Of a stretch of 64,000 nt of DNA, positions 8,674 through 62,531 are shown one piece after another (positions within the stretch are counted from its first letter, which is position 1; each line of letters opens with the position of its first letter). The DNA is taken from the NCBI GenBank assembly GCA_017654935.2, contig CM065691.1, positions 27,918,098 to 27,982,097 on the forward strand, given 5' to 3'. The notes under the pieces are model-generated. The model was not told the origin of the DNA and ran no database searches. It was given only the letters and a program-made list of their open reading frames with translations. This stretch comes from Phymorhynchus buccinoides (taxonomy: Eukaryota; Mollusca; Gastropoda; Neogastropoda; Raphitomidae). A program made the translations under genes and the position numbers.

Positions 8674-9550
8674 TACTGTCCAAAAAAAGATATGCATAAC
8701 TTGTAGGCCTAGTCAAAGTTTCATCTTAATTTCAAAACTTAACAGAAAATCACACAATGCGAATTTCGTTTTGAAATTTGACATGGTGATAGCTGCATGT
8801 ATGGCGAGTTCATGTGTATTCTCAAATAATTCAGTCAGTCGACATCCTTGGGTGTGAGGGCTGTCAGAACAGTAGGGAGTGACCGCCTTGAACAGCAACA
8901 AGTGCCTGGGACACTATCAGCATGGGACTCGATCAGACGGTGGATGTCTTGCTGTGGGTTGATGTCCCACTCCTCCTGCTGTGCTTTCAACAACTCGCGG
9001 TGATTCGCCGGCACATCTTCTCGGCCATGCACGCGTCTATCCAGTTCATCCCAAAGGTGTTCTTTTGGATTCATGTCTGATGATATGGTTGGCCAGAGAA
9101 TTTCGTGGGGGTGGTTGTCGGTGAGCAACTGGGTGCCGGGTCGCACAGTATGAGGGCGAGCCTTGTCGTGCAGGAACGCAGCGTTAATGTCGTGCAGAAG
9201 AGGAAGGACGTGTGGACACAGAATGTCCTTAGGTAGTGCTCTGCAGTTAGGCGTCCTTGCACCAACACTACGGGATTCCCTTTCGTAGACATTTGCGAAC
9301 AAGGTGTTAACTCTGTGTTCACGAAATTGCATTAAATTCTATCCATGCATGGCATGTGGGCATGAAAAAAATCGCTTTTTTGACATTTTATGCATTGTGT
9401 GCGCATGCGCATGAGCAGAGAGAAACATTGACAGCGATCATGACAAGGACCACTGGGTGAACATTTCCAGTAGTTAGGTGGATATGCGTGCAGCAATGCA
9501 ATGACGAAAACCACCTTTGAAAAAGTATGCGTTTCTTTTTTTGGACAGTA
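8674..9550 (-). mobile_element. Internally deleted Tc1/mariner element
   Basis: Terminal inverted repeats TACTGTCCAAAAAAAGA (left) and the matching TTTTTTTGGACAGTA (right) are flanked by TA. At 877 bp it is about half the length of a complete Tc1 element. It retains only the C-terminal half of the transposase frame (8835-9332). Confidence 0.85.
8835..9332 (-). pseudogene. Tc1-like transposase, C-terminal fragment
   Basis: The minus-strand frame shows the DDE_3 region: an AFLHDKARPHTVR segment, then LLTDN and ILWPTISSDMNPKEHLWDEL, the SPDxNPxExxWxxL-type block around the last acidic residue. Then come helices leading to RLIESHADSV. The N-terminal helix-turn-helix domains and first catalytic Asp are missing, so it cannot encode an active enzyme (about 165 residues against roughly 340 for the family). 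Confidence 0.85.
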
Positions 9551-22100: not shown

Positions 22101-25100
22101 GTATACTTCTTCTTCTGCATTCCCAGGCCAAAAGGCCATAATGGGTAAACTACATATAGGTTCATTTTCACTTTGCCGACACATTCCGATTTCGGAGGAG
22201 CTCAAACCCTGAATTTATTTTTTATAAATCCTGCAATTCAGAACATCCTGCAAGAAGGAGCATCCATGGAGACAGAATAGGTGAAGAGAATGAAGAGCAG
22301 AGGCCCAAGACAGAACCTTGTGGCACACCATAGGTCAAAGAAGTAGGTTTAGAAGAAAGACCATAGGTCAAAGAAGTAGGTTTAGAAGAAAGACCATGGG
22401 CAGAGACAACTTGTTGACGATCAGTGATGTAGGAATGAAACCAGCTCAGGACTGTGTTAGAAAACCCAAATGACTGACGTAAACGGGGAGAAGGATAGTG
22501 TGGTCGATAGTGTCAAAAGCTGCAGGCAGGTCATATGCGTCTGATCTTATGCCCTAGGACACTGTCAAACCTGCCACATTTTAGAAATGAAAAAGAGGAG
22601 CGGGGGCGGTCTGGGGGCCGGCGTAGGCCCCCAGTGGGGTACAGGGGCAACAGTTGGGGGTGAGGGGGCAACGCCCCCTGAAGCTGAAAACTTTTTAATG
22701 ATAAGTGAGCAGAAAAGTACCCCAGAAAGCATGGAAAAGCACATAGCATCCTATAAAGAAGTGGCTGAGCCAAGCCCTCAATCCTGTAAGGATTTTGCAG
22801 AATGAACTAGAAATGGGTATGCTTATTCAAAACATTATATTGAAATTATTTGTGAATAAAAGTTAATGAAACTTTGTAGTAATCTTGCTATATTGTTTTC
22901 TGTGTTCAACTGTTGACAATATTATTTTTGCCAATTTGACATTTTGTGTTTGTTTATTTTTTATTGATTATTACGAAAATTGAAAATATATATACAAAAA
23001 AAGGTGTGTTCAACAAAGATGTTAAAAAAAATGTGTGGTGTGTTTATTATTAAAACATTGCAGACATAAGTCATTTACATCATCAGAGAAACATTAAAAG
23101 CTCAAAATAAACTTAGTACTTGCCTTTCTGTAAGGGTTATTTTAGTAATGCAATCAACAGGTAAATGATGTTCGGATACGCACACCTGTCGGTCTCATTG
23201 CCGATCATTCACGATCGACGTTTTCGTGTGAAAAGTATCTCTATGCTTTGTATAAAGTGCTAAACCACTCTAAGTCCGATAAAAATCAACGAAACTATCC
23301 AATTCATTGTCTAAAATAGTTTCGGAATCCTCGGCAGATGACCGGTCGATCGATAGGCACTGCACTAGCATGAGTCTCAACAGTCACTTCACTCTGACCC
23401 CTATAACGAAGTCCAAAAGCACGATTGGCACACAATTTATCGGTAAAAACATCGATAACATCGTCGTCTATCGCTTGGAACGCCGCCATTTTGATGAAAA
23501 ATAATTTTCCCCTTAAAAATTCGAAGAAAATCGATCAAAGTTAGGCTTCAATCGAGCTCCGTGCACAATGGCGGCCATAGAAACAGGAAGTCGAATGCTT
23601 TCCGGCTGTCGTTAAAGCTTCCCTTCTGCATTAGAGAGCTCTCACTTCCTTAGCAACATGACTAAACAACGTTGCTTGACGGCTCTCAAAATATTGGAGT
23701 TTCGGCTATCGCGATCGGAGAGAGGGTTGAAGCCAAAAAAATCGGAGTTTACCCGCCGAAATCAGGGTGAACAGCAGGTCTGCACTGTTCATCCAGGCAT
23801 GGCAATGGAGGACAAGTATTTTTCTCTGAAAATATTATATGACTTCAGGAGATGTTGTTGTCTCTTGGTGTAATCAAGGTATTTATGTTGATCAGGAGGC
23901 AATTACTCTTGAAGATGAATACGCAAAACTGTTCAGACTTGAGAAAATGGCATTTCCTCAAGCTTAAAACCGCTTCCGCCATTTTATTTTCTGCCTTCAC
24001 TTTTCTCTGAATTCGGAGAAATCTCTGAAAACGACCCTACCTGTCATCCTGAGCCCCTTCTTGTCGTTCTCGTACTCCTCCCAGGCGGCCTTCTTCTCCT
24101 CCTCGGTGAGCGTCTGCTCCACCAGGTTCTCCAGCAGAGAGTCGTGCTCGAAAAGGGTGACGAACCAGTCCTTTTGCTCCCCGGACATGATTTCTGCCAG
24201 CAGCACATCCTGTTGGGAGGAAGAGAGAAAGTGCAAGATACTGAGATAACTCCTTCAAAAAATCACAAATAATTCATTGTGTAATTTTAATCTGTATCTG
24301 AGCGAAAACTCCCAATCTGCCTTCTTTATTCATTTTAAGATAAACCATTTTAGCAGGCAACCTTGAAATGCATGTGTGTGTTCACCTTAGGAAGCATGAG
24401 TGTTTTCTTGGCGCTGTCGTCTGCCAGTTTCTCCGGCCTGAAGGCGTAGAGCTCCGACAGGTCGGCGGCGGTGAAGTGTCGCTCCACCTGGTGTTCGTCC
24501 ACCACACGCTGCGACAGCGACAGCTTGGTCACCTGACGGTCGTAGATCTTCTCCTCCATCGTACCCTGAGGCATTCACACATACATAATGATCAGTGTTG
24601 ATTTTGGTGCACACATGTACATCTCTGACACTCAAAACTCCCATCTCACGCACTAGGTTTCAGACCAGTGGCATCAGTAAAATGTCAGCAATTTTTTACC
24701 CGATACAGTTTTGAGAGATTCCCTAAAATATTCAGGCGAGTTCCTAAAGATGCAGACATATCATCCAGGGCCTGATTTTGAAGATAGAATTAACAGCAAT
24801 GATAACAGATAACACCACAACACATTTTATGAGGCATAATCATAATGTTCTCTATTGTTGTTCAATTCATTCATGGTTAAAAAGGGATTAAACTTCAGCC
24901 ACGACAAATGTGAGATAAAGCTGGATATAAAATATAAATCTAGAACACTACCTCCTGTTATATTATTCTTGTTTAAACATGATTAAATTTGGTGTAAAGG
25001 GATTAAAACTTCAGCCATGGAAAAGATCTCAAAAGCTGACTAAAATATGGGGGTCAAAATGAGGGTCATGTATATAGCCTTCATAGGCTCTTGTGACATA

Positions 25101-32900: not shown

Positions 32901-35900
32901 GTTCCAGTGACGTTGCAGTCTGTTTCAGTTTATTGTCCTGATCAGCTTAGCAGAGGACTCTTAAGGCATAGAGAATTCTAGGACTTAAAATTCCACACCT
33001 GTATTATAGAGTTTAAATGTATGTAATCAAAGAATGTCTATCAAGATTTACAGCAGAACTAAATTTCAACAGTGTGCACAAGTGAATCTTCAAATGAAAT
33101 TGATACACCATTTGATTTTAACAACATTCTACCTTTAATCCTTCCCTCCCCCGCAACAAAAGTGAAACAAAAAAGCTAAATTGACATGGATCAAACAAAT
33201 ACATGGGTGCAACTCCCCAAATGGCAAAATGAAAAAAAACTGAAAGGCAGGGGTCCAGGGACCCTTGGCTCTGGCAGGGTACAGGGGCAGAGCCCTGTTG
33301 GACGATTCAGGGGGGCAACTTAACTTTTCTACTACCGTCGGCGGGTTGACCCGCCGGTTTACCGTATACCGTTGCTAGCCACGGGCGGGTTTGACCGCCA
33401 GATACTAGGGAAACCCCGGTGTCCCCCTTTGCGCTATTTATATCAAGTGACATCACATCCTTTACTTCCGTGACATGCGCAGTTCGCTCAGGGAAAGCCC
33501 AATCTTCCGCCATCTTCATTTGTAGGCTAAATTTTGTAATTTTCAATCGATTTTCGTCGCGTTTTCGATGATGGAAACTGACAACTTTTGGCGTGAACCT
33601 CTACAAGATGGCGATAGTGCCGACAAAGCATTTACTGTGGAAAAAGTGGCAGAATCTGAACTTAGGCGAATCAAAAAGAGCATCGAAAGTGTTGAAACGA
33701 TCTTGGGTTTGCAGCAGCAGATCGACACAGGTAAATTTAGTGATGATTCGAGCGAGTATTTTTTTAATGGATTTTTTAAGAGAGTACGTGCGAAAATCAG
33801 TGCAGCGGCAAAAATTACTTGGTGCGCAACAGTAAACAGTCTAAGTAATACTTGGTAGCAGAAGAGTTAAGAGAGAGAGATACCGAGATAGACAGACAGT
33901 TAAAATGATAGACAGAGACAGCTTGAGTCTGATAAGCCTTGTAAAATTATTACATTGCCTTTGCAAACTTCCAAGATAGAACAACTAGACTAAGTTCAAA
34001 ACGTCCCAAATCACTTGTGGTCAATTTTTGTTTGTTTGTTGTTGAAATTTTAAAAAACTGAAGTTCAGTTTCTGGTAAAATTAAAAATACTGAAATCAGT
34101 GTAAACAATGAAAGAGTAGCACCCGTGCTAATAACTGACTGCAAGAACAAACACAACTACATGCGTAGACAGACTTTTTCCGTGACTTTCTGCGTCGGCG
34201 GCGAGAACTCGGCCCCTCATTCCCACTGTCACCGGAATAGACGTGGGATTCACTGTCACTGCTGCTGCCACTGCTGCTGCCACTGTTGTATGAGCGATCC
34301 GTCTCATCGTCATCAATGAAAGACTCTTCGTCATCAAATTTTCCCTGTAATAAAGAAAATAGAAATAATTTTCATCACATTTTCCCTGTAATAAAGAAAA
34401 TAGAAATTATTTTCATCACATTTTCCCTGTAATAAAGAAAATAGAAATTATTTTCATCACATTTTCCCTGTAATAAAGAAAATAGAAATTATTTTCATCA
34501 CATTTTTCCAATAATAAAGAAAATAAAAATTATTTTCATCAAAGTTTCCCTATAATAAAGAAAATATAAATTATTCTCATCAAAGTTTCCCTATAGTAAA
34601 GAAAATATAAATTATTCTCATCAAAGTTTCCCTATAGTAAAGAAAATATAAATTATTCTCATCAAAGTTTCCCTATAATTAGGTGGCGGCTGGCTCTTCT
34701 TACGGCTACCACGCTTGCCGTCAAAATCGTAAACAGTGACTCACTTAAAAGTTGTCAAAGTTGGATTAAACTTCACTTTTTATGTTTTATGTTATACAGA
34801 ATTAAAGATGAATGATTATTCTTTGCTCTCGTTGTTTTGTTATATTTGTGTGAATGAGAAAAGTGTGTTTAATTTAAAACCAAAAACACGGTAAAAACCG
34901 AAAGTTTGACTGCCGCAGTGTTTCCCGAGTTTCGAGCAAGATCACTGACCGTAAACAAATCACAGAAGCGGTTTTTTAAAACTGCCAATGCACATAAATA
35001 ACCCATCAATGGAAAGCTCAAAACCTCTACTTTGTGATGATGGGGGGTATTTTTTAAAGAGATTCCAATATCATGGCCAAAAAAGCGTTTTAAAAATGTA
35101 AATAAATATTTCGCAACCTTCCACTCGCCGAGGCATGTCATGCCGGATATCATTTTAAAGCTCAGCCAATGAGCAACCAGAATACATCAAAAGCAAGGCG
35201 AAACGAAGACTTGGGAGAGAGCCGCGCGAAATATACCGCGGCATGTGATTGGTCCGTTCTCTCAATAGAGTGTTCGTCATGGCGTCACCCAGCAGAGATC
35301 AGATCGCTAAGAATTTCGCCACGCTTCGCCCATTTCTCGGTAAGTTTGACAATTAAAACACTATCGATCGATAAACTGATCATTAAGGAAACGAATTCAT
35401 AGCATAGTTCCTTTAATTAAATTATATAATTTGTAATAGTTTCGTTTGAAGTGAGCCATCGCTTCGACGGCAAGCTAGGCTCCATCGGACATAGCCATTC
35501 ATAGACGGTGTGCCCAATCGATGTAAAAATAAAGGCACTATTTTGTTGAATTACGTGTATTGAGCTACTGTGCCGTTGAAATTAATGTTTCTCTGATTCA
35601 GGTTTTTTTTCTTTAGCAGTTTTGACGCGATTTGATATTTTAAATAATATTTCTTATCGAGCTATCGTTTCGCCCAAGGGACATCACTCTTATCGAAATA
35701 CTTGTTTGCTCGATGTTTCGATTCGAAGCCTTCGACAAAGGAGCAAAAGCTGAGGGTTTTGAAGAACACTATTGCCTAGAACCCGATTTAAAATGCAACA
35801 TAATGCAATAAATACGTTATTGATGAGCCTGTGACTCTTTCAGGAAGTTGCATTTAGGTTTTACATCAAGAAGTTGAAGTTGAAGGTTTAAACTTGTAGT

Positions 35901-38900
35901 GTTGCAAAACATGTTATTGTTAAAGAATACCCCCCCCCCCCCTCCCTCCAATACACACTCACATGCATGCATGAATGCATTCTCTCTCTCTGACACTTTT
36001 TCATAAGATTATATGGGTTTTAACTAGAAATAGTAGAATGCACCCTCTCATATTGCCACTCACACACATTAGTGTACACATTTATGTACACAATGTGACA
36101 CACACACATGCACACCCTCATGTACACAGTGTGACATACACACACACACACAATAGTGCACACACTCATGTGCACAGTGTGACATACACACACACACTCA
36201 TGTACAGTGTGACACACACACGCACTAGTGACTCATGTACACAGTGTGACATGCATGCACACACTCATGTACACCATGTGACACACACGCATGCACACAC
36301 TCATATGTACAGTGACTCACACACTCTGGAGGACACTTGCATAAGATGATGTGTTTTTTTCTTTCAGAGGATGCAACATATGGTGATTTAAAATTGGCGT
36401 TCTTTGCACAAGGGCGTGGAGCTAGGAAGAAGATAACTGGGCTTCAGTTCAACAACAAGCTTATGCTACAGATGTTTCTCCTTCGAGAAGATGGATCCAA
36501 AACATGGGCTGACACTGAGAAATTTGTTATGAAGTTTTGCGGCGATGCACCTCCACTGAGAATTAAAACTGTGATAGAAAGCAGTGCCACAGCTGTTGGA
36601 AAACTGAACTTAACATCCATTGCTGAAGATGATTTATCAAAATTTTTCCTGACTGAAGTTCAGATCCACCAAGGGGTTGGATCTTTTGCGTCTGACATCG
36701 GATTAAGTGCAGATAATTTAAGAGACTTGTCTTTTGATGCTCTTTGCTCACAGCCCTCCAACGGACTTGTTCTAGACCTGGAAAAATTTAGAACAAAAGA
36801 ACATTTGGCAGCTAGTTCTATCCAGGCATGGTTAAATAAGCTCACAAGGCTTGACCTTCCCATGCCATTTTTGAGAAAAAAATAAGAAAAAATGAAGCAA
36901 GAACAGGCCCGTCTCAGGAAAAAAGGCAGTGGTGGCAGTGACGAGATGAAATCTTTCCTCTCCAGCAAATTTCCATTGCCAGGTGACAATCCCACAGTAG
37001 GTTCTTGTAGTGTAGGCTCAACAACATCATCACCTGCTTCGACCATTGGCCTGAAACTGGGTACCCAGGCAAATGAACTGTCTGCTGTCAAGAGAAAGCT
37101 TGAAGACACCACCAAACAGCTGGAGAACTCCACAATTGTAGGTAGCGTCTTACACGATCAGCTTCAAGAGGCCAAATCTAGGGGGGAAAAACTGACGACG
37201 GAAGTTGAACAATTGTCAGAAGATCTTGAGGTGACAAAAGAAACACAAAGCACCCTTGAAAAAGAAAATGTAGAGTTGCAGAAAAAGGTTAACACATATG
37301 CCAAAGGAACAGTCAAGAGGACACTTGATAAAACAACAAAACAGTTGGAAGAACAGAGCAAAGTGTGCAAAGATCAAGAACAAAACATTCAAGATCTTCA
37401 AAATCAAAAGGGTAATTTGAAAGAAAAATATAAGAGACTTCAGCTTGACATAGCAGAACTTAAGAGGAGATATCAAAGAAACCAACAAAGACTGGCTGAA
37501 GCCCAAGCTGAAGCTGAACTTCAGCCAGAGCCAATGGATCAAGATGAGATTCATGAGATCCGTCTCAAGGACGAAAGAGGACATTTTATTCCAGATGCCA
37601 TCAAATGTGTGATGGCTTTGATAGGTGAATGCGATGTTCCTGCCCATAGATGTGGAGATGTGATAAAAACTGTTGTAAGTTATGTTTGCCATGCAACAGT
37701 ACCAGAGACAGATCTGCCATCACAGCGTTCTGCACTTCGGTTTGCAGACAGGGCTCACGTAATTGGAAAAGCCCATGTTGCAGAAACTGTGGTAACAGCA
37801 GACAATTTTGATTTTCATGCTGACGGAACAAGCAGAGGAGGCCGCAAATTTGTAGGTCAGCAAGTGACTGTAGAGGGACAGTCCATGTCACTTGGATTCA
37901 TCCCTGTTGCTGTTGAGGACGCTTCGACGCTGGTCGAAATCAGCATGAAGATTCTTGAAGAACTCTCTGATTTAATTTTGACACCAGATGAAGCACAAGA
38001 AAATTTTGTAAACATTTTACAAAATTTGTCAGGGGTTATGAGTCATGAAGTCATGACTTCTGTCATGAAGTCATTTGGCAAGGAATTGGAAAAGGAGAGG
38101 AAACAACTGCTGCAGACTGATGAGGAGCTCCAGTTTCTTCACTGTAACGCTCACTTCCTTCTGGGACTGGGATCTGAAGCAAAGAAGACACTGACACAAG
38201 CCTACAAAGAAGCAGCTGATGCAGCGGTTCCAGGAGGAGAAGAAGCAGCCCAATGCCATGGCTTCGATTCTACAATTGTCAGGTATCTGTCTCCCTCTCT
38301 TTCTCTCATAGTTTAAAAAAAAAACCTGAAATCAGTGTATACTCCTTGCACTTGAATGAACATCTCCCTAGGACAACACATGCCCAGGATTTTTAACACA
38401 TACACACTTAACTTTTGCTGATGCTATTAATAGTATTATGGGCCAAATGGCCTGCAAAAACTGAATTAAACACATTGCTATAGTTATTGTTACACATACA
38501 CTTTTTGTAAACGAAAATGCTCATATTGCCTTTGGCAAGTCTAAAATCTTTTATTTACAAACTGAGCTTGGTTTGAAAAGCCCTATTCTGACTGTTGCAG
38601 ATATATCTACATGGCATGTGATTGTCTTGGACCCCGTGGTGACGACAGATCAGGATGCAGAGATGTCTGGGTAGCCTTTTGCAGTATGATCGAGAGACAG
38701 TCAGCCATCACAAGCTTCCGTGACAACCGGTTTAATAACCTCTTCCAGGCAGCAGCCAGCCTTCACTACCATCGCCAGGACATCCAGGACTGCCTTGGTA
38801 CTTTCTTGAAAACTCGCAACAGGAAAATTCAGATGGTCTTTGATGACTGCCAGAGTGACCAACTAGACTGCCAGCTGATTGCTCTTGGTCTTCTTTACTT

Positions 38901-41900
38901 CTGGATAACTGGTATGTATCCATGACATTAACTTAAATTTCATAGTTATCAATCATTCAAAGTGATAATACAGTTCAAAGTTGTTAACCATTCAAAATTA
39001 AAGCTATCAGAAATTACATACACTCAATTAAACTTCTTCTTCTTCTGCATTCCCAGGTCATACATAATTATGATCATAATGGGTAAGGTACATATGTGTC
39101 CGGTTTTCAGTTTTCACTGGTCTCCTCGCTGCGTACAGCCGACACATTCCAATTTCACTTGCTTTCAGTTTCTGTTTCTATCAATGTGAAATGGAAAAAA
39201 AGCACTGAACTGAGTTTTGACCAATTAATTTGATTTCTAAAGCTTATTCTTTTCCCTGTGTGTGTGTTTCAGGCCCATACTGGAGTCTGTTGGGAAAGTC
39301 TCTGCATTACTTGGACTTCTACCTAGAAGTGGCAAGGCTGCAGACCGTTCTGAAGGAATGGGAGGAGGATGCTTCGCCAGCATTAGAACAGAATTGGTTT
39401 GCAGTGTTTCCTGGAATCAAGTTCAATTTTGACCACAACATCTTTGCATCTCTGAGGAATGTGAATGATGACACTAAGCAGAATGTAAAAGGTCTTCTGC
39501 AGAAATTGTGCACTGCATTTTTGTTAGTCACTGATCGGCAGTTGAAAGACTTTTTGCCTGGTGGTCGATACCATAACGTCCAAGACCCAGAACTTCGGGA
39601 AAAGATGTCCCATTCTTCTCTCACAAACCTTGTTGGAGAACAATGCTTCGGGGACTTGGACTTTTCCATGTACAAACGTCGCAATGCCACCCTTCATCAT
39701 CATTCCACAGTCAACATGTTGAAAAGGAACAAATCCATATCAACTTGGCTGGACCACAAAGATGAACACGAACAGCGGGAGTTACTACACCTTGCCGCTG
39801 TGAAGTCTGCGTCTCTGCGACGAGAACACCAGAACATGGAAAAAGAGGCCATCACCAGAAAAAAGGAACAGCTTCTGGAACTACAGCAAAAGAAGAGGGA
39901 GATGGAGATTCGAAAAAACCAGCAAATTGCAAACATTGGGAACGCTCTCATGCATCACAGAGGACCATGCAAATCAACTGCAGATGTGCAAAATCTTCTT
40001 GATTTTTACAACACAAACGGCGGTATACAGAAAGCCTTAAAGGCAGAACTTCAGTACCAGAAAGTGGTGCTGAAAGTGTCCTCCCCGTTCTTAAAGAAAG
40101 TGACGGGAACTGCCCTCTTTCTCTTCAACAACCTGATGCAGGTTTTTGGTGGAAATCCTGTGACACAGCTACCACCCCTTCGGCATGCAGACGTAAATCA
40201 AGCTCCGCGGGCAAAGTGTCCCAGGCTGCACCCTGATGAGTGTGAGGAATCTGAAGATGATGAAGAAAGTGATATGGAAGAAGAGACAGACGTTGACGAG
40301 GACTCTGAAGGTGACGATAGTGATGCTGACAATGATGCTGAACAGGCTGAAGAATTGGATCAGTTTGGAAACTTCACTTTTACGCTGAAAGGGGAAATAG
40401 TAGCAGTGTACTATGATGATGACTACTACATTGGAACAGTGGTTGATTTTGAAGAAAAAGAAGAGGAGTCGGATTACAACTGGGCAGAGATCAACTTTAT
40501 GGAAAAAACAACCATCCTCATCAAAGGAAAGAGCAGATTCAGATGGCCCAGTCGCCCTGACAAGTTCAGGGTGTCATCCAAGTTTGTGTTTGCGGAATCG
40601 CTCAAAATAGGTCCATCGTCCTACTCGGGCCGCATCTATGCTGTGGAGGAGCCAAAAGATCTGGAAGACAGATACAAGACATACAAAAGATTGTGTCAAC
40701 AGTTTTAAGCCAACACATCTATGCATGATTTTGTAAGTGAAAAGTAACTCGACCCCAACTCCCCCCACTCCCCTGTACCCTCCCCCCTTATTCTCCTCTT
40801 CCCTCAGCCATCTTTAAAGTGGATATTGGTTTTATTTCTAATATAGTGAATACATTATCAAAAAGACACATGCAAACTGTGAAAAATGACATTTTAAAAG
40901 TTGTTGCCGAATTTCAGCTTAATTGGTCAATTTGTTCAAGAGTTATGACTAATAATGTTGTTCACTTGGTCGGATGGGACCATTCCGCATGGGCGATTTT
41001 GGCATTTTTTCCAACTTTGAGACCCCACCAAGTGATTGTTTCTTTACATATCAGCCTGAAAAAAAAATAGGCATTATCTGCACATACAGGAGACTTCATA
41101 TAAACAATTCTGAAAGATTTGGATGATAAATGGTGAAGTGGCTGGACTCTAAACATGGCTTGTCATGTAATTTCGCCACTCGTCAGACGTGATTTTCCCC
41201 ATATTTGAAGGTGTGTAATTTCACAACTAATGATCTTATGATTATGGTTTTATGTGGGCTTGATCTCCTGTATGCATAGAATAAGTATATGAAGACTTGT
41301 GTCTGTATTTTACCATTTGTGCATTTTGTAGATGACTAAAGTTGGCCTTTTTCACGTTCTGGACGCTCTTTTCAAATGCGTCAATTTTTAAAATGCTATA
41401 TTTTCAAAACTAATCAAGATATGAACTTAATTTTTTTTTTTATAAGGTTGGTTTGATCAAATCTTTTAAAAATCAACAAAAAATATGAGTAAATATTGGT
41501 ATCAAGTTTTGTCTTGCCGCCACCTACTATAATAAAGAAAATAGAAATTATTCTCATCAAAGTTTCCCTATAGTAAAGAAAATAGAAATTGTCAATGTCA
41601 CAAGTCAGGGGACCAGGTACGCTGAACTTGTACTACACGCATGCACATCTACACCAACGCTTATTATTTATTACGAGAGAAGCGGCGGGAACTATTGTTT
41701 TTGTTTCGTCCTTGCGGCATCCGCCCGTCTGTGTGCAATCTTGACCATGAGGGAACTTTGCACCCGCCCAGGTTCAGCTTTGTTTGGGGTTTTTTTTGTC
41801 TTATTTATAGATCACTTATTCAGTCACAAACTGTACAAAGCATACTCAAATTATATCACTTCCAAGGTAGAGATATTTCATCGTAGCAACAGAGGTATTT

Positions 41901-57093: not shown

Positions 57094-60000
57094 TGACATT
57101 GAAAATACTATATTTTACTCTCTACGCCTAGTATGATATCTGTGTTTAAATGCTATGCATTGTATTTAGTCCTTATCTACAATGTTCACTGTGTATATAT
57201 GTATTCATACATGTATGTGTATCCATTGCATTTTAGTGGGTTTTTTTATATTGATGTAAAGCGCTCTGAGCTCCCTGCAAAGGGAGTAGAGCGCTATACA
57301 AGTGTCCTTAATTATTATTATTATTATATAGCCATTCGCTTTGAAATTGCATGTTACCTGACTTTTTGGAGCAAAGAATATGTGCAGAGATTATTCATGA
57401 CACTGAACGAGAATATCAAAGATTTTTGTTTTCCTTTCCAGAGCCATGATGTGCTTTTTCGATCCGGACACAAACATGATATTCTTAGCAGGAAAGGTAG
57501 GCTCTTGTTTTTAATTCCATGCTTGTGGTTCAGTGAGAGAGACTGGCTGTATGCTCAGCCTGAAATAAATGTTTTACATCTTCAGGGCAATCTGCCTTTA
57601 TGGACAGGTTCTTCTTGAACTGTAGTCATAGTAAAATGCTCGCTTGGTGCATCGATTCATGTGTTTGGTTCGCTGTATATTTGCGCTTGTATGTTTTCTG
57701 TATATCAGTGCTTTATATTACTATTTCTGTACACATAAATATGAATATGTGTGTTGGAAACCTTACCGTGCAAAAAATATGCTGCTTGTTTTGATATGCA
57801 GGCATTTAATGCTAGTGTGCATGATTACAGGTAAATTGTTCCATGTTTATTTTGGTATACAGGCATTTACATATGTGTAGTGCTAGTGTGCATGATTACA
57901 GGTAAATTGTTCCGTGTTCATTTTGGTATACAGGCATTTTTGTGTAGTGCTAGTGTGCTTGATTACAGCTAAATTGTTCCATGTTCATTTTGGTTTACAG
58001 GTATTTATTTACATATGTGTAGTGCTAATGTGCATGATTACAGGTACATGAGCGACTTAGCTGGCTCTTTTGACCGCCAGGTGGCATAACGCTCGAGTGG
58101 GGCTAATCCTCTCTATATTCTTAGTTGGGGATAAAGAGAGAGAGAGAGGGAGGGAGGAGTCCCACCCTCTCTCTCTCTCTCTCACTACGCCCAACTAATT
58201 AGAACATCGCGTGATAAGCCCCTAGTGGTTTGACTGCCCCCTGGCGGTCAAATCATCGCCATAAGTCGACCATTGTTCCATGTTCATTTTGGTTTACATG
58301 TTTATATATGTGTAGTGCTAGTGTGCTTGATTACAGGTAAATTGTTCCATGTTCATTTTGGTTTACAGGTATTTATTTACATATATATGTGTAGTGCTAG
58401 TGTACATGATTACAGGTAAATTGTTCCATTTTCAGAGTGACAACAGTGTGCGTTTTGTGGAGTTGACGGAGAAAAGTCCATATCTTACTGACGGTGAGTT
58501 ATGATGTACAAACAAAGAAGAAGAGATAGACCTCTAATTATCGATTCTTCAAATTATGTATGGAATTTTGCTGTGATGATGTTTTTGCATATAGTTCATA
58601 TTATGTGCCTGTGTGTGTGTCAGCTAAGTTTGTCTGGAATTATCTTAATTTTTGCTTTTTTCCCCTTCTTTCAGAATATTTTGTTTGATTATGCGCTATG
58701 TGAGTTTTCAAATGTTATGAAATAGCCGATACATGGAGGAAGAGAATGAATGAAGAAATCAGTTTTACCTGTTGGTTCATGCACCCTCTCTTAAAATAAT
58801 TAGCATGTGGTGTGCTAATATGTGTTTGTGTGTGTGCAAAGTGTGTGTGTGTGTGCTTGAACATGACTCAAAGTCTTTGTTCAATGTTATATTAACCCCT
58901 TTGATGCCGACTACTACTTGTGCATGCTCCGCCAGTTTGCTGCGCGATTTTTGAACACGTCAATATCGCTACTTAGCGGCGACATATATATACGTCGGTG
59001 GCAAGTACTGAAGCGCTATAGAGGACATATATATATACGTCGGTGGCAAGTACTGAAGCGCTATAGAGGACATATATATACGTCGGTGGCAAGTACTGAA
59101 GCGCTATAGAGGACATATATATACATCGGTGGCAAGTACTGAAGCGCTATAGAGGACATATATATACATCGGTGGCAAGTACTGAAGCGCTATAGAGGAC
59201 ATATATATACGTCGGTGGCAAGTACTGAAGCGCTATAGAGGACATATATATACGTCGGTGGCAAGTACTGAAGCGCTATAGAGGACGTATATATACGTCG
59301 GTGGCAAGTACTGAAGCGCTATAGAGGACATATATATACGTCGGTGGCAAGTACTGAAGCGCTATAGAGGACATATATATACGTCGGTGGCAAGTACTGA
59401 AGCGCTATAGAGGACATATATATACGTCGGTGGCAAGTACTGAAGCGCTATAGAGGACATATATATACGTCGGTGGCAAGTACTGAAGCGCTATAGAGGA
59501 CATATATATATACGTCGGTGGCAAGTACTGAAGCGCTATAGAGAACATATATATACGTCGGTGGCAAGTACTGAAGCGCTATAGAGGACATATATATACG
59601 TCGGTGGCAAGTACTGAAGCGCTATAGAGGACATATATATACGTCGGTGGCAAGTACTGAAGCGCTATAGAGGACGTATATATACACATCAGTGGCAAGT
59701 ACTGAAGCGCTATAGAGAACATATATATACGTCGGTGGCAAGTACTGAAGCGCTATAGAGGACGTATATATACGTCGGTGGCAAGTACTGAAGCACTATA
59801 GAGGACATATATATACACGTCGGTGGCAAGTACTGAAGCGCTATAGAGGACATATATATACACGTCGGTGGCAAGTACTGAAGCACTATAGAGGACATAT
59901 ATATACACGTCGGTGGCAAGTACTGAAGCACTATAGAGGACATATATATACACGTCAGTGGCAAGTACTGAAGCGCTATAGAGGACATATATATATATAC

Positions 60001-62531
60001 GTCGGTGGCAAGTACTGAAGCGCTATAGAGGACATATATATACACGTCGATGGCAAGTACTGAAGCGCTATAGAGGACATATATATATACGTCGTGGGCA
60101 GCGAAGAGGTTAATGCATTTGAATTTCTTCTTTTTTTTGACAAATAAAAACCCTGGACATTTTCTTTGCAATCTGTAAGTTTGTTAAGCATTTATTGTCA
60201 ATGTACAAGCTATCTGTCTGCAACTGATACAGTCAGAGCTGATTCTAGAGCGCAGGATTGGTACAATCCCCCGAAAATCTGTTCCTTCCCGCGATAATCG
60301 AGTCTTAATGCGGGCCGACTCCCGCACATTTGCAGAACTGCCTGCTATTTTCACCGATCGCTGCGGGCATGGTGTTCGTCGTCTGCAAAACCTGTTGTCT
60401 AGGCTACACAAACTGATTAACCAATCAATCGCGTTCATCTCATTCATCTTGAATACCAACGAGAACTTGCGAGAGTTTAAGCCGCCATATTGGATTTCTT
60501 CCAAAATGAAGCGCGTAGCCACGCTCCTTGATTTTGACTTTCGCGGAGGCAAAGTGGAAAAAAAAGCAGTCTGTGCCACATGATGAGTCGAGTGTGGAGA
60601 AGAGCTTGAAGAAACGGCGACTACATCCAAAAACTCGGAGAAGCAGCCCGATAACAGCGCCAGTGCAAGAGAACATCGGTTCCAAGACGACTGGCTGAAG
60701 AAGTACCCTGAATGCTTTCAATTAACAATTTAAAAATAAATGTGTATGTCATGGCCGTTTTCCCTTGTATCCAGTGGACCTGCCATCAATCCCCCCTTTT
60801 TTCATTCTTAGGGGGGGACCTGCCCCCCTTTTTTCAATCATAGGGGGGGGAATGTCCCCCCTTTTTCAAAATCCTAGAATCAGCTCTGACAGTGGAACCT
60901 CTCTAATATGACCTTGAAAAATCAGCCAAAATTAGGTCTTATAAGGGAGGAGTCTTTTTAGGGAGGTATAGTCACTGAGTAGTCAGGATATGAACGGGGA
61001 CAAAATTGGTGAAATTTTTTTGGGTCACATCTTTGAGGGAACCTAAATAGGGAAGGTCTTCAAAATAGGGAGGTTCCACTGTACATGTATTAGTGTTCGA
61101 CCCTCACACAAATTTCTCCTATATGTGACCCAGCACCGCGAAAGGGACATTAAGTCGCTGGGCTAGTTTCTCACAACAGGCTTGGAAAGTCAAAAATATA
61201 ATTTTTTTGGTCAGTTTTGAGTTTGGGGTATTTTCATGTTCTCAAACATCTTATTTTTCATATTTATAAAGGACAAACTGTAATATGGTATCTAATATAA
61301 ATGGTCTTATAAGGGCTTTAAAACAAATAGGTCAATGCATTTTCTCCAGCTAGTCTTGAATTTAGACTGTATTTTCTCAAAATGGCCGATGCTTTAAGTG
61401 CTCATAACTCTATAACAGAAAGATACAAGAATGGTTCTTGTATCATCAGAAAGAGAATTGTCTGAAGTTTTCAAGTGTACAATTTTCTCAGAATGGTCAG
61501 TTTGAGACTTAATGTCCCTTTCGTGGTACTGGGTCACATATGATAATGATGGTAATGAATTTGATGTGATTTGATAATATAATAGGAATTGTTCGGAAAT
61601 AATTAAGGGGAGTAATTTTAAGGTTTGTGTGAATGATCCCGCCTAACCGAGTGGGGACAAACAATGGCTTAATGAAGCTGTTACCTCGTATGTTTGAGTA
61701 GATAGACATCACAAAGAACACAGTGCGTCATTCTAAAATTGTCGTCATTTATATTTTACGTCACATTTTGCACAGTTCGATCATTCGTGGCCACTTGTAA
61801 TCACCCCTCATTTCTCTAAAAAAAAATGTTTGCAAGTCGACGCTCACTCGCATCCTGGTTTATCTCTTCGACACCATGGTTGCTATGGTTTTGTCCCTCT
61901 CTGGTCGAGGTAAACAACTCTAATTTTTATGAAGTTCTTTCCCCTAGTGACGATGATTGAATTGCAATCATAATTTTAACCCTTTCACCGCCAACGTCGC
62001 ATTTTTGCACCACAATGATTTATCACCCATGTCACTAAAAGGCATCAAATCAGGGTCTGTTATCCGAAGACCCTGATCTCTTCATTTTGGGAGGTGGGGA
62101 TAGGCCTTACTTTAAATATGTCGCAGAGGAATCCCGAATATTACAGACAGATTTTTATCTCTACCCAGGTAAGTTTAATGAATTTTGTTTGCTGAAAAAC
62201 GGCTGGCGGCGAAAGGGTTAAAGGCATGCTTTAAGCAAACAAAACAGTGAACAATGAAGGGACGTTTATAAGCCGCGAGGCTTAGGCTTGAGCCAGTCCC
62301 ACACTATACTATACTATACTATACTATACTATACTATACTATACTATACTATACTAGTTTTTTCCCAAAAATCGTCTGTTTCCCCCAGGTGTGATGGACC
62401 GGTCAGAGCAGGTGAAGGGTGCGGCGCTGGTCCCCAAGCGTGCCATGGACCTGATGAGCGGGGAGGTGGACCGCCTCCTGGTCATGGTCAAGAACTCCAT
62501 CATCCCCTTGCCCTGGATCGTGCCCAGAAAG
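52490..62531 (+). CDS. CORO7: Coronin-7 / POD-1, first beta-propeller, 8 internal exons (partial)
   Basis: Exons 52490-52560, 53190-53376, 53973-54097, 55023-55109, 56201-56283, 57442-57496, 58436-58493 and 62389-62531, all GT-AG with matching phases, about 269 residues. They read as successive WD40 blades of a coronin. Blades: DFDFSPFDDYMLATGSHDSS / VKVWLLP; VLWHPTAEGVLAASTGSCVK / VFDIAS; HGDQVQSISWKAGGSLMAT / DKQMRVLDLRAG. Then GFKANQEREIRLWDTRNL, CFFDPDTNMIFLAGK and VKGAALVPKRAMDLMSGEVD to IPLPWIVPRK. The GAALVPxxAxxxMxxEVxR to VPRK stretch fits the first half of the double-propeller coronin-7 rather than short coronins. The family acts in Golgi trafficking and actin/microtubule crosslinking. 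The N-terminus and second propeller lie outside. Confidence 0.88.
52885..53012. repeat. Short repeat (inverted TTCTGCATTCCCAGG family)
   Basis: AGCTCCTCCGAAATTGGAAT to GGGCTGGGAATGCAGTAGAA, the reverse of 22095-22205. Confidence 0.6.
53190..53376 (+). CDS. CORO7: CORO7 exon, VKVWLLP blade
   Basis: Reads VKVWLLPNEDNMENVSQATV, ENVLWHPTAEGVLAASTGS, CVKVFDIASNEEKL. Donor TTAG|GTGAGC. Confidence 0.93.
53741..53885. mobile_element. Pogo-like MITE (CAGTGGAACC termini)
   Basis: TA-flanked 145 bp palindrome: CAGTGGAACCTCCCTTATAA and, inverted, the same from the right. Confidence 0.85.
53973..54097 (+). CDS. CORO7: CORO7 exon, HGDQVQSISW blade
   Basis: Reads AYAEHGDQVQSISWKAGGSL, MATTCRDKQMRVLDLRAGKL plus AQ. 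The CxDKxxRxxDxR pattern is coronin-specific. Confidence 0.93.
54391..54838. mobile_element. Two abutting MITE fragments
   Basis: 54391-54475 is the left half of the GGACTATAAGGCG family (CCATACTTTTCAGACTATAA). From about 54490 to 54838 it is the TCGTCAGTGAAATT family (CCACCTTCCACCAAAAGCTT), lacking its left end. Confidence 0.75.
55023..55109 (+). CDS. CORO7: CORO7 exon, GHQNVKDTR blade
   Basis: 29 codons: EVAGHQNVKDTRVLWLGDTD, YIFSTGFKA. Donor GCA|GTATGT. Confidence 0.92.
55556..55752. mobile_element. Palindromic element with AACTTAGGACG termini
   Basis: AACTTAGGACG at the left and CGTCCTAAGTT at the right. Inner arms TTCTTAGTTGGGCG / CGCCCAACTAAGAA and GGGGCTTAGCGCGC / GCGCGCTAAGCCCC surround a (GA)n core. 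A relative is at 58048-58272. Confidence 0.8.
56201..56283 (+). CDS. CORO7: CORO7 exon, EREIRLWDTR
   Basis: Reads NQEREIRLWDTRNLASSLTA, QNMQGST. Acceptor TGTGCAG, donor GG|GTAAAA. The ExxLWDTR motif is conserved among coronins. Confidence 0.92.
56749..56988. mobile_element. Degraded TTAA MITE, second family
   Basis: AACCCCTTCACTGCCGGAG at the left and GGCTGGCAACGAAGGGGTCA at the right. The core CTGTCAAAATGGTCT is shared with 16730-16945. Confidence 0.65.
57035..57092. repeat. (TG)n microsatellite
   Basis: An interrupted TG run in a CORO7 intron. Confidence 0.9.
57255..57335 (+). repeat. LINE/SINE 3' tail
   Basis: ATGTAAAGCGCTCTGAGCTC, AGAGCGCTATACAAGTGTCC then (ATT)n. Compare 45125-45205. 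Confidence 0.65.
57442..57496 (+). CDS. CORO7: CORO7 short exon, FFDPDTNMIFLAGK
   Basis: A 55-nt exon with acceptor TTTCCAG and donor AAG|GTAGGC. Too short for simple frame scanning (a different frame is open across it). It matches the DPDT...LAGKG coronin block. Confidence 0.9.
57795..58435. repeat. Minisatellite built on the CORO7 exon acceptor (58436)
   Basis: Six units of about 70-80 bp (GCATGATTACAGGTAAATTG, TTCCATGTTCATTTTGG, TTTACAGG, ATATGTGTAGTGCTAG). The last unit carries the genuine acceptor (TTGTTCCATTTTCAG). Interrupted at 58048-58272 by a palindromic element. Confidence 0.88.
58048..58272. mobile_element. Palindromic element inside the CORO7 array
   Basis: GAGCGACTTAGCTGGC, TTTGACCGCCAGGTGGC and, at the other end, GCCCCCTGGCGGTCAAA and ATAAGTCGACC, with a GA/CT core. 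Same family as 55556-55752. Confidence 0.75.
58436..58493 (+). CDS. CORO7: CORO7 short exon, SDNSVRFVELTEK
   Basis: Reads SDNSVRFVELTEKSPYLTD. Acceptor CATTTTCAG, donor ACG|GTGAGT. Preceded by an array built on this acceptor. Confidence 0.88.
58892..60113. mobile_element. TTAA MITE with an internal ~43 bp satellite (about 25 copies)
   Basis: Left end TTAACCCCTTTGATGCCGAC and right end GTCGTGGGCAGCGAAGAGGTTAA (inverse TTAACCTCTTCGCTGCCCAC). Nearly the whole interior (58978-60090) is a tandem unit ACATATATATACGTCGGTGG, CAAGTACTGAAGCGCTATAG, AGG. Copies are highly homogeneous. The minus-strand frames (YVLYSASVLAT repeats) are artefacts. Confidence 0.85.
60233..60888. mobile_element. TIR element with a short transposase-like frame
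   Basis: GTCAGAGCTGATTCTAG at the left and CTAGAATCAGCTCTGAC at the right. A plus-strand frame near 60506 reads MKRVATLLDFDFRGGKVEKK, resembling the opening of some hAT-type transposases (MKRxxTLLDFxF). The rest is missing. C/G runs lie near the right end. Confidence 0.55.
60890..61081. mobile_element. Pogo-like MITE (CAGTGGAACC termini)
   Basis: CAGTGGAACCTCTCTAATAT and, inverted from the right, CAGTGGAACCTCCCTATTTT. Its left TA has been lost to the neighbouring element. Confidence 0.75.
61122..61540. mobile_element. MITE with ~35 bp inverted ends (TATGTGACCCAG)
   Basis: TATGTGACCCAGCACCGCGA, AAGGGACATTAAGTC at the left and GACTTAATGTCCCTTTCGTG, GTACTGGGTCACATA at the right. Confidence 0.85.
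61541..61975. other. CORO7 intron, nothing specific
   Basis: No exon or repeat recognised. Confidence 0.4.
61976..62221. mobile_element. TTAA MITE, CCCTTTCRCCGCCA family, best copy
   Basis: TTAACCCTTTCACCGCCAAC and GGCTGGCGGCGAAAGGGTTAA. TTAA is intact at both ends. 246 bp. Confidence 0.85.
62304..62356. repeat. (ACTAT)n microsatellite
   Basis: About ten pentamers, ending 30 bp before the CORO7 acceptor at 62388. Confidence 0.95.
62389..62531 (+). CDS. CORO7: CORO7 exon, GAALVPKRAMDLM
   Basis: Reads VMDRSEQVKGAALVPKRAMD, LMSGEVDRLLVMVKNSII, PLPWIVPRK. Donor AAG|GTGGGG. It matches the end of propeller 1 in coronin-7. Confidence 0.93.

Follow-up and report, generated by a model that had tools for sequence, protein, structure and literature searches.

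What kind of sequence interrupts the ATRX gene of the neogastropod Phymorhynchus buccinoides, and how does it relate to known DNA transposons? The question arises from a 64,000-nucleotide stretch of contig CM065691.1 (hereafter, the window), in which positions 34680-41526 encode a protein whose relatives are mostly listed as uncharacterised animal proteins. We consider it very probable that this segment is one copy of a DNA transposon with predicted cut-and-paste movement, and that its DDE transposase comes from a hAT-like lineage, that is, one predicted to have the fold of the Hermes enzyme.

A bounded insertion with dispersed copies

The segment comprises 6,847 bp between facing copies of the 11-bp sequence TAGGTGGCGGC (Table 1). 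A preliminary description had reported 11-bp inverted termini, CTATAAT flanks and a host minisatellite that stops at one edge and resumes at the other, and each of these is present in the sequence. When the flanks are fused with a single CTATAAT, the product, CATCAAAGTTTCCCTATAATAAAGAAAATA, is identical to the array unit at 34537; the window thus contains the equivalent of an empty site, with the neighbouring array units serving as its record. No third TAGGTGGCGGC site was found in the 64-kb window with one mismatch allowed. At that tolerance, two or more matches appeared in 4 of 100 shuffles of the window, and since shuffled sequence sometimes yields such loose matches, the case is carried by the exact match of the two facing ends, by the flanks and by further copies of the element.

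The same description proposed a complete, bounded element carrying one four-exon gene of about 1,240 codons. The gene model agrees, with four predicted exons and GT/AG introns giving 1,241 codons, and so do the boundaries. Completeness as a working gene does not hold: a stop at codon 193 breaks the reading frame of the window copy, and where most relatives have MSDRA as the second catalytic motif, the window copy has MSHEVMTS, with two extra residues.

The exact 11-mer occurs at 54 + 71 places in the genome (2.12 Gb, 3,962 contigs), against 32 + 53 for the reversed control. Among the 100 places listed of these 125, four facing pairs lie about 6.85 kb apart, namely the window copy and loci L009, L010 and L011. 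The proposed search for termini with 7-8-bp duplications around homologues therefore returned at least three further copies with both ends. Outside gaps, the four elements are 99.4-99.9% identical, while their flanks are unrelated (only 20-31 of 100 ungapped positions identical), and perfect duplications at the window and sister copies read CTATAAT, CTAATAT and CATGATT. Such high identity together with distinct duplications points to a recent spread of the four copies in this genome. The frame stays open for 1,238 codons in L009 and 1,237 in L010, and both encode DGTS, MSDRAS and the glutamate; in L011, it is lost after a 10-base gap in exon 1.

Exon 4 of the window gene has at least 93 matches in the genome (E up to 0.001). 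We entered 69 of these 93 rows into an association test against the 100 listed 11-mer sites, omitting 24 that were on C3082 and some small contigs, were second pieces of loci or were the weakest. Of the 69 rows, 13 (12 loci) had a correctly oriented exact TAGGTGGCGGC no more than 8 kb away, compared with a mean of 0.02 rows and a maximum of 1 over 1,000 random placements, and all 17 row-site pairs found within this distance were correctly oriented. At 8 of the 12 loci, the best exon-4 row was just 41-52% identical to that of the window, and more distant families have comparable ends. Family A, whose exon 4 is 33% identical to that of the window, was fetched in four of seven copies, 98.8-99.9% identical across 7.1 kb; its ends are TAGGTGTGTCC and GTCCTACCTA and its duplications CTTAATT, CTCATAT and CTTTAAG, the fourth fetched copy being masked on its right side. 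Family C (exon 4 35% identical) has a sharp 3' border at GGAATACCTA in two copies, and one copy has the 5' end TAGGTACTCC and the duplication ATACAGT. The C27 copy of family C (L060, L057) was examined and gave no readable duplication because its 5' end is truncated. In total, perfect 7-bp duplications were found in 7 of the 10 copies examined from the window family and families A and C; six of the seven start with C, and A+T is 78% overall. TAGGT..ACCTA ends are thus found in three families of the genome, and several further families keep an unbroken frame of about 1,200 codons. The suggestion that the termini and target duplication define the mobile unit of this protein family is upheld by the recurrence of both features in two other families. 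Proteins listed as uncharacterised thereby become a mobile element with known ends and catalytic residues, a target duplication and dispersed copies that are nearly identical, and the family can now be masked, dated and tested.

Fragments of the element are also present. A search with the 5' part returned 24 matching pieces; five copies on C3082 and one on C2599 start at element base 1, have a common upstream flank and are alike for about 5-6 kb. We rejected the C3082 copies as independent insertions: a single upstream flank, together with some 5-6 kb following it, is common to them, which identifies them as segmental duplicates of one 5' fragment. This fragment covers bases 1-827 of the element, interrupted near 467 by foreign sequence, and was multiplied inside a larger duplicated unit on C3082 (6.17-6.52 Mb), C2599 and C8 (L036-L042, L044). 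The 3' part retrieved the four copies and a fifth on C942, at 93% and internally rearranged. On C942, L051 (2488-4499) retains the 3' end; 126 bp of exon 2 recur there in about nine tandem units, and the core with the catalytic residues is missing.

Table 1. Features of the insertion and its gene, in window coordinates
Feature	Position	Strand	Basis
Host 41-bp minisatellite, broken by the insertion	34331..34679	.	array restarts at 41527
Left target-site duplication, CTATAAT	34673..34679	.	sequence
5' terminal inverted repeat, TAGGTGGCGGC	34680..34690	+	L009, L010 and L011 also have it at both ends
Exon 1 of transposase gene (predicted)	35279..35339	+	GT donor; frame runs on into exon 2
Exon 2 (predicted)	36368..38282	+	gene model
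N-terminal all-helical domain, possibly DNA-binding	36370..36843	+	AlphaFold2, predicted local distance difference test score 90.3
In-frame stop, codon 193, lesion of window copy	36883..36885	+	not present in L009, L010
First catalytic aspartate, D506 in HADGTS	37822..37824	+	D in 36/36 relatives
Second catalytic aspartate position; H580 and two-residue insertion in window copy	38044..38046	+	D in 35/36 relatives; MSDRAS kept in L009, L010
CxxH motif, C613-N-A-H616	38143..38154	+	36/36 relatives
Exon 3 (predicted), holds NRFN 701-704	38601..38911	+	gene model and alignment of relatives
Exon 4 (predicted)	39273..40708	+	gene model
Third catalytic residue, E885 in TNLxGE	39638..39640	+	36/36 relatives
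C-terminal beta-rich domain, weakly Tudor/Agenet-like	40349..40705	+	AlphaFold2 strands at 680-753 in relative P0002; Agenet profile 6ie4 of the PDB, E 0.0095
3' terminal inverted repeat, 11 bp, TAGGTGGCGGC	41516..41526	-	sequence match
Right target-site duplication, CTATAAT	41527..41533	.	sequence

The transposase and its predicted action

A D-D-E triad and a CxxH motif of hAT type are present in the relatives (Table 1; counts from alignment A3 of 36 chosen relatives, in which several rows lack the N-terminus). The sole AlphaFold model covering the core is that of P0002, a Littorina relative, and its predicted fold, a Hermes-like RNase H core with a helical insertion, falls beside hAT transposases such as Hermes. 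No confident match to the N-terminal helical domain was found among PDB folds. At the other end of the protein, which had been described as Tudor-like, a beta-rich domain is indeed predicted, and its resemblance to Tudor is weak. In five relatives (P0041, P0050, P0118, P0122 and P0125), the predicted protein also includes other Pfam domains, as fused gene models or real chimeras, and that of the Hypomesus transpacificus relative P0182 includes a THAP domain (PF05485), by fusion or gene-model error.

These features are consistent with a mechanism in which the transposase of an uninterrupted sister copy would bind the TAGGTGGCGGC ends, possibly recognising them through its N-terminal helical domain. 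The D-D-E site would cut these ends with hAT-style cleavage chemistry, and the cut ends would be joined to target DNA across a 7-bp stagger, the repair of which would leave the 7-bp duplication. A role for the C-terminal domain may be to direct insertion towards chromatin. Given the stop at codon 193 and the loss of the second aspartate, the window copy likely moves only in trans, with enzyme supplied by another copy.

A proposed placement beside hAT

Several observations weigh against a hAT-like transposon. The preliminary description left the family unassigned and proposed profile searches, and no Pfam transposase family was matched by the window protein (E up to 1), by seven further proteins in a full Pfam scan (E up to 10) or among the 25 Pfam families listed for the 36 relatives (rows to E 0.083). 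The label stands in this respect and is refined by the predicted fold of P0002, although the Hermes alignment was made with this Littorina protein and not with the window protein. No Kolobok, Dada or KDZ structure was among the folds listed, so the fold ranking does not extend to these groups. The four-exon model and its splice sites are predictions, movement by cut and paste is deduced from sequence, and the duplication at L011 is imperfect (left CCTGATGG, right CCGTGATGG). Finally, the usual 8-bp hAT duplication is absent, all seven perfect cases among the 10 copies examined being 7 bp. In the same three Pfam scans, neither the hAT dimerisation domain (PF05699) nor a BED zinc finger was listed, and the N-terminal domain is predicted to be all-helical. 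As neither PF05699 nor BED was listed and no 8-bp duplication was observed, we call the element hAT-like and not a member of hAT. It resembles Hermes and other hATs in its predicted core with helical insertion, D-D-E, CxxH and short inverted ends, and differs from them in its duplications and unlisted domains, in an extra helical N-terminal domain, a coiled coil and a C-terminal beta-rich domain, and in its length of about 1,240 codons.

The ends of hAT elements start with TAGG or CAGG, as do the TAGGT ends here, and the element could belong to an ordinary hAT clade already in Repbase (for example, hATm, hATw, hATx or an unpublished entry), with only the copy being new. We regard this as unlikely, though it is the likeliest of the alternatives. 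The hATm ends, TAGGGTG/CACCCTA, are near TAGGT, but hATm duplications are described as 8-9 bp and hATm-6 has PF05699 (PMC6004678), which was unlisted for the window protein and the relatives scanned. Clades of hAT with 5-, 6- and 7-bp duplications are on record, and hAT7 of rust fungi combines 7-bp duplications with a hAT-type enzyme; in its description, however, sequence places hAT7 with the Ac/Tam3 hATs of fungi and plants (PMC12730594), whereas no sequence-level hAT match was found here. It is likely that the element belongs to an undescribed branch of hAT-like transposons.

A divergent member of another DDE superfamily (P, Kyakuja of KDZ, Dada with its 6-7-bp duplications, or Kolobok) seems improbable, more so than a known hAT clade. 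Kolobok duplicates TTAA, which was found in none of the seven perfect duplications. A C/DxxH motif after the second aspartate is described as common to hAT, Kolobok, P, MuDR and Dada (PMC3706591), and 7-bp duplications are also made by fungal hAT7 and Kyakuja (PMC12730594) and by Galileo of the P superfamily (PMC2775673), so duplication length alone is not defining. The P superfamily, with 7-8-bp duplications, agrees with the element in this length and, through Galileo (PMC2775673), in its RNase H core; however, its fold match seems weaker than that of Hermes, and neither the window protein nor the relatives scanned had the N-terminal THAP profile listed; the fish relative P0182 does have it. 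Dada shares a DDE enzyme and a similar duplication length, but is described as lacking terminal inverted repeats and targeting small RNA genes (PMC3706591), in contrast to the 11-bp repeats and minisatellite insertion found here. Kyakuja likewise has a DDE enzyme and 7-bp duplications, but its described CA..TG ends lack inverted repeats (PMC12730594), unlike the TAGGT..ACCTA ends of three families.

We give very little credence to the idea that host genes account for both the fish gene discussed below and the mollusc proteins, with the window copy a transposed or duplicated one. The fish orthologues do form one clade and known transposase profiles find no match, but units bounded by inverted ends and target duplications in three families contradict it, as do the unrelated flanks of the four copies and the abundance of exon-4 matches.

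In our judgement, the chances are even that the hAT-like element represents a superfamily of its own among animal DNA transposons, as the sister group of hAT. Such a superfamily would be marked by an enzyme with the Hermes fold, TAGGT ends, a target duplication of 7 bp, a helical domain of a new type that binds the ends and a tail that reads chromatin. Its hosts would include molluscs, nemerteans, annelids, echinoderms and also ray-finned fish, in which one copy would have been domesticated before the bowfin/teleost split as zgc:109744, with the scaffold kept and the first two catalytic motifs lost. A lineage beside hAT with another duplication length bears on how stagger length evolves within one fold.

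A fish homologue and the surroundings of the insertion

A search begun from two catfish proteins found 166 proteins, of which 120 were listed, many without an organism name (fish homologues P0052, P0053 and P0128-P0245). Judging from the names, every named row among the matches listed is presumably a ray-finned fish, the range running from bowfin (Amia) by way of eels and Arapaima to perch-like fish. The name Zgc:109744 is given to eight of the listed rows, and a riboflavin-transporter name, mostly slc52a2, to 22. Two of the fish proteins also carry PF06237, which we take to be a riboflavin-transporter family, and together with the slc52a2-type names this suggests that zgc:109744 adjoins slc52a2. 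In the 24 fish rows of alignment A4, the DGTS block is gone (its G in none), the second aspartate is found in none and CxxH is eroded (C in 11, H in 16), while the third glutamate is retained in 21. In the tree, 17 fish rows form one clade with a support of 100, and bowfin branches first. The simplest reading is that zgc:109744 represents one ancient domestication in which the scaffold was kept and catalysis dropped, and it is likely that an old relative of the element turned into a host gene in ray-finned fish. This unnamed gene, which many ray-finned fishes carry, thus gains a transposase ancestry and a likely domestication age, and its function becomes a direct question.

The host gene lies on the opposite strand. 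Its hand-stitched exon pieces match 'Transcriptional regulator ATRX' (PDB chain 9l06_K) at E 1.4e-43, the next row being at 3.3e-12, and SNF2 at E 7.7e-28; the PDB match agrees with the earlier placement of the insertion antisense within ATRX, in an intron. Elsewhere in the window, a 43-bp minisatellite of about 25 copies occupies 58981-60087, and there are further long tandem arrays. An open frame at 8838-9338 (-) resembles what we take, from its motif, to be a decayed Tc1-type transposase. Another, at 22225-22512 (-), contains GVPQGSVLG, a stretch that we assume to be reverse-transcriptase-like and that is probably a remnant of a long interspersed nuclear element.
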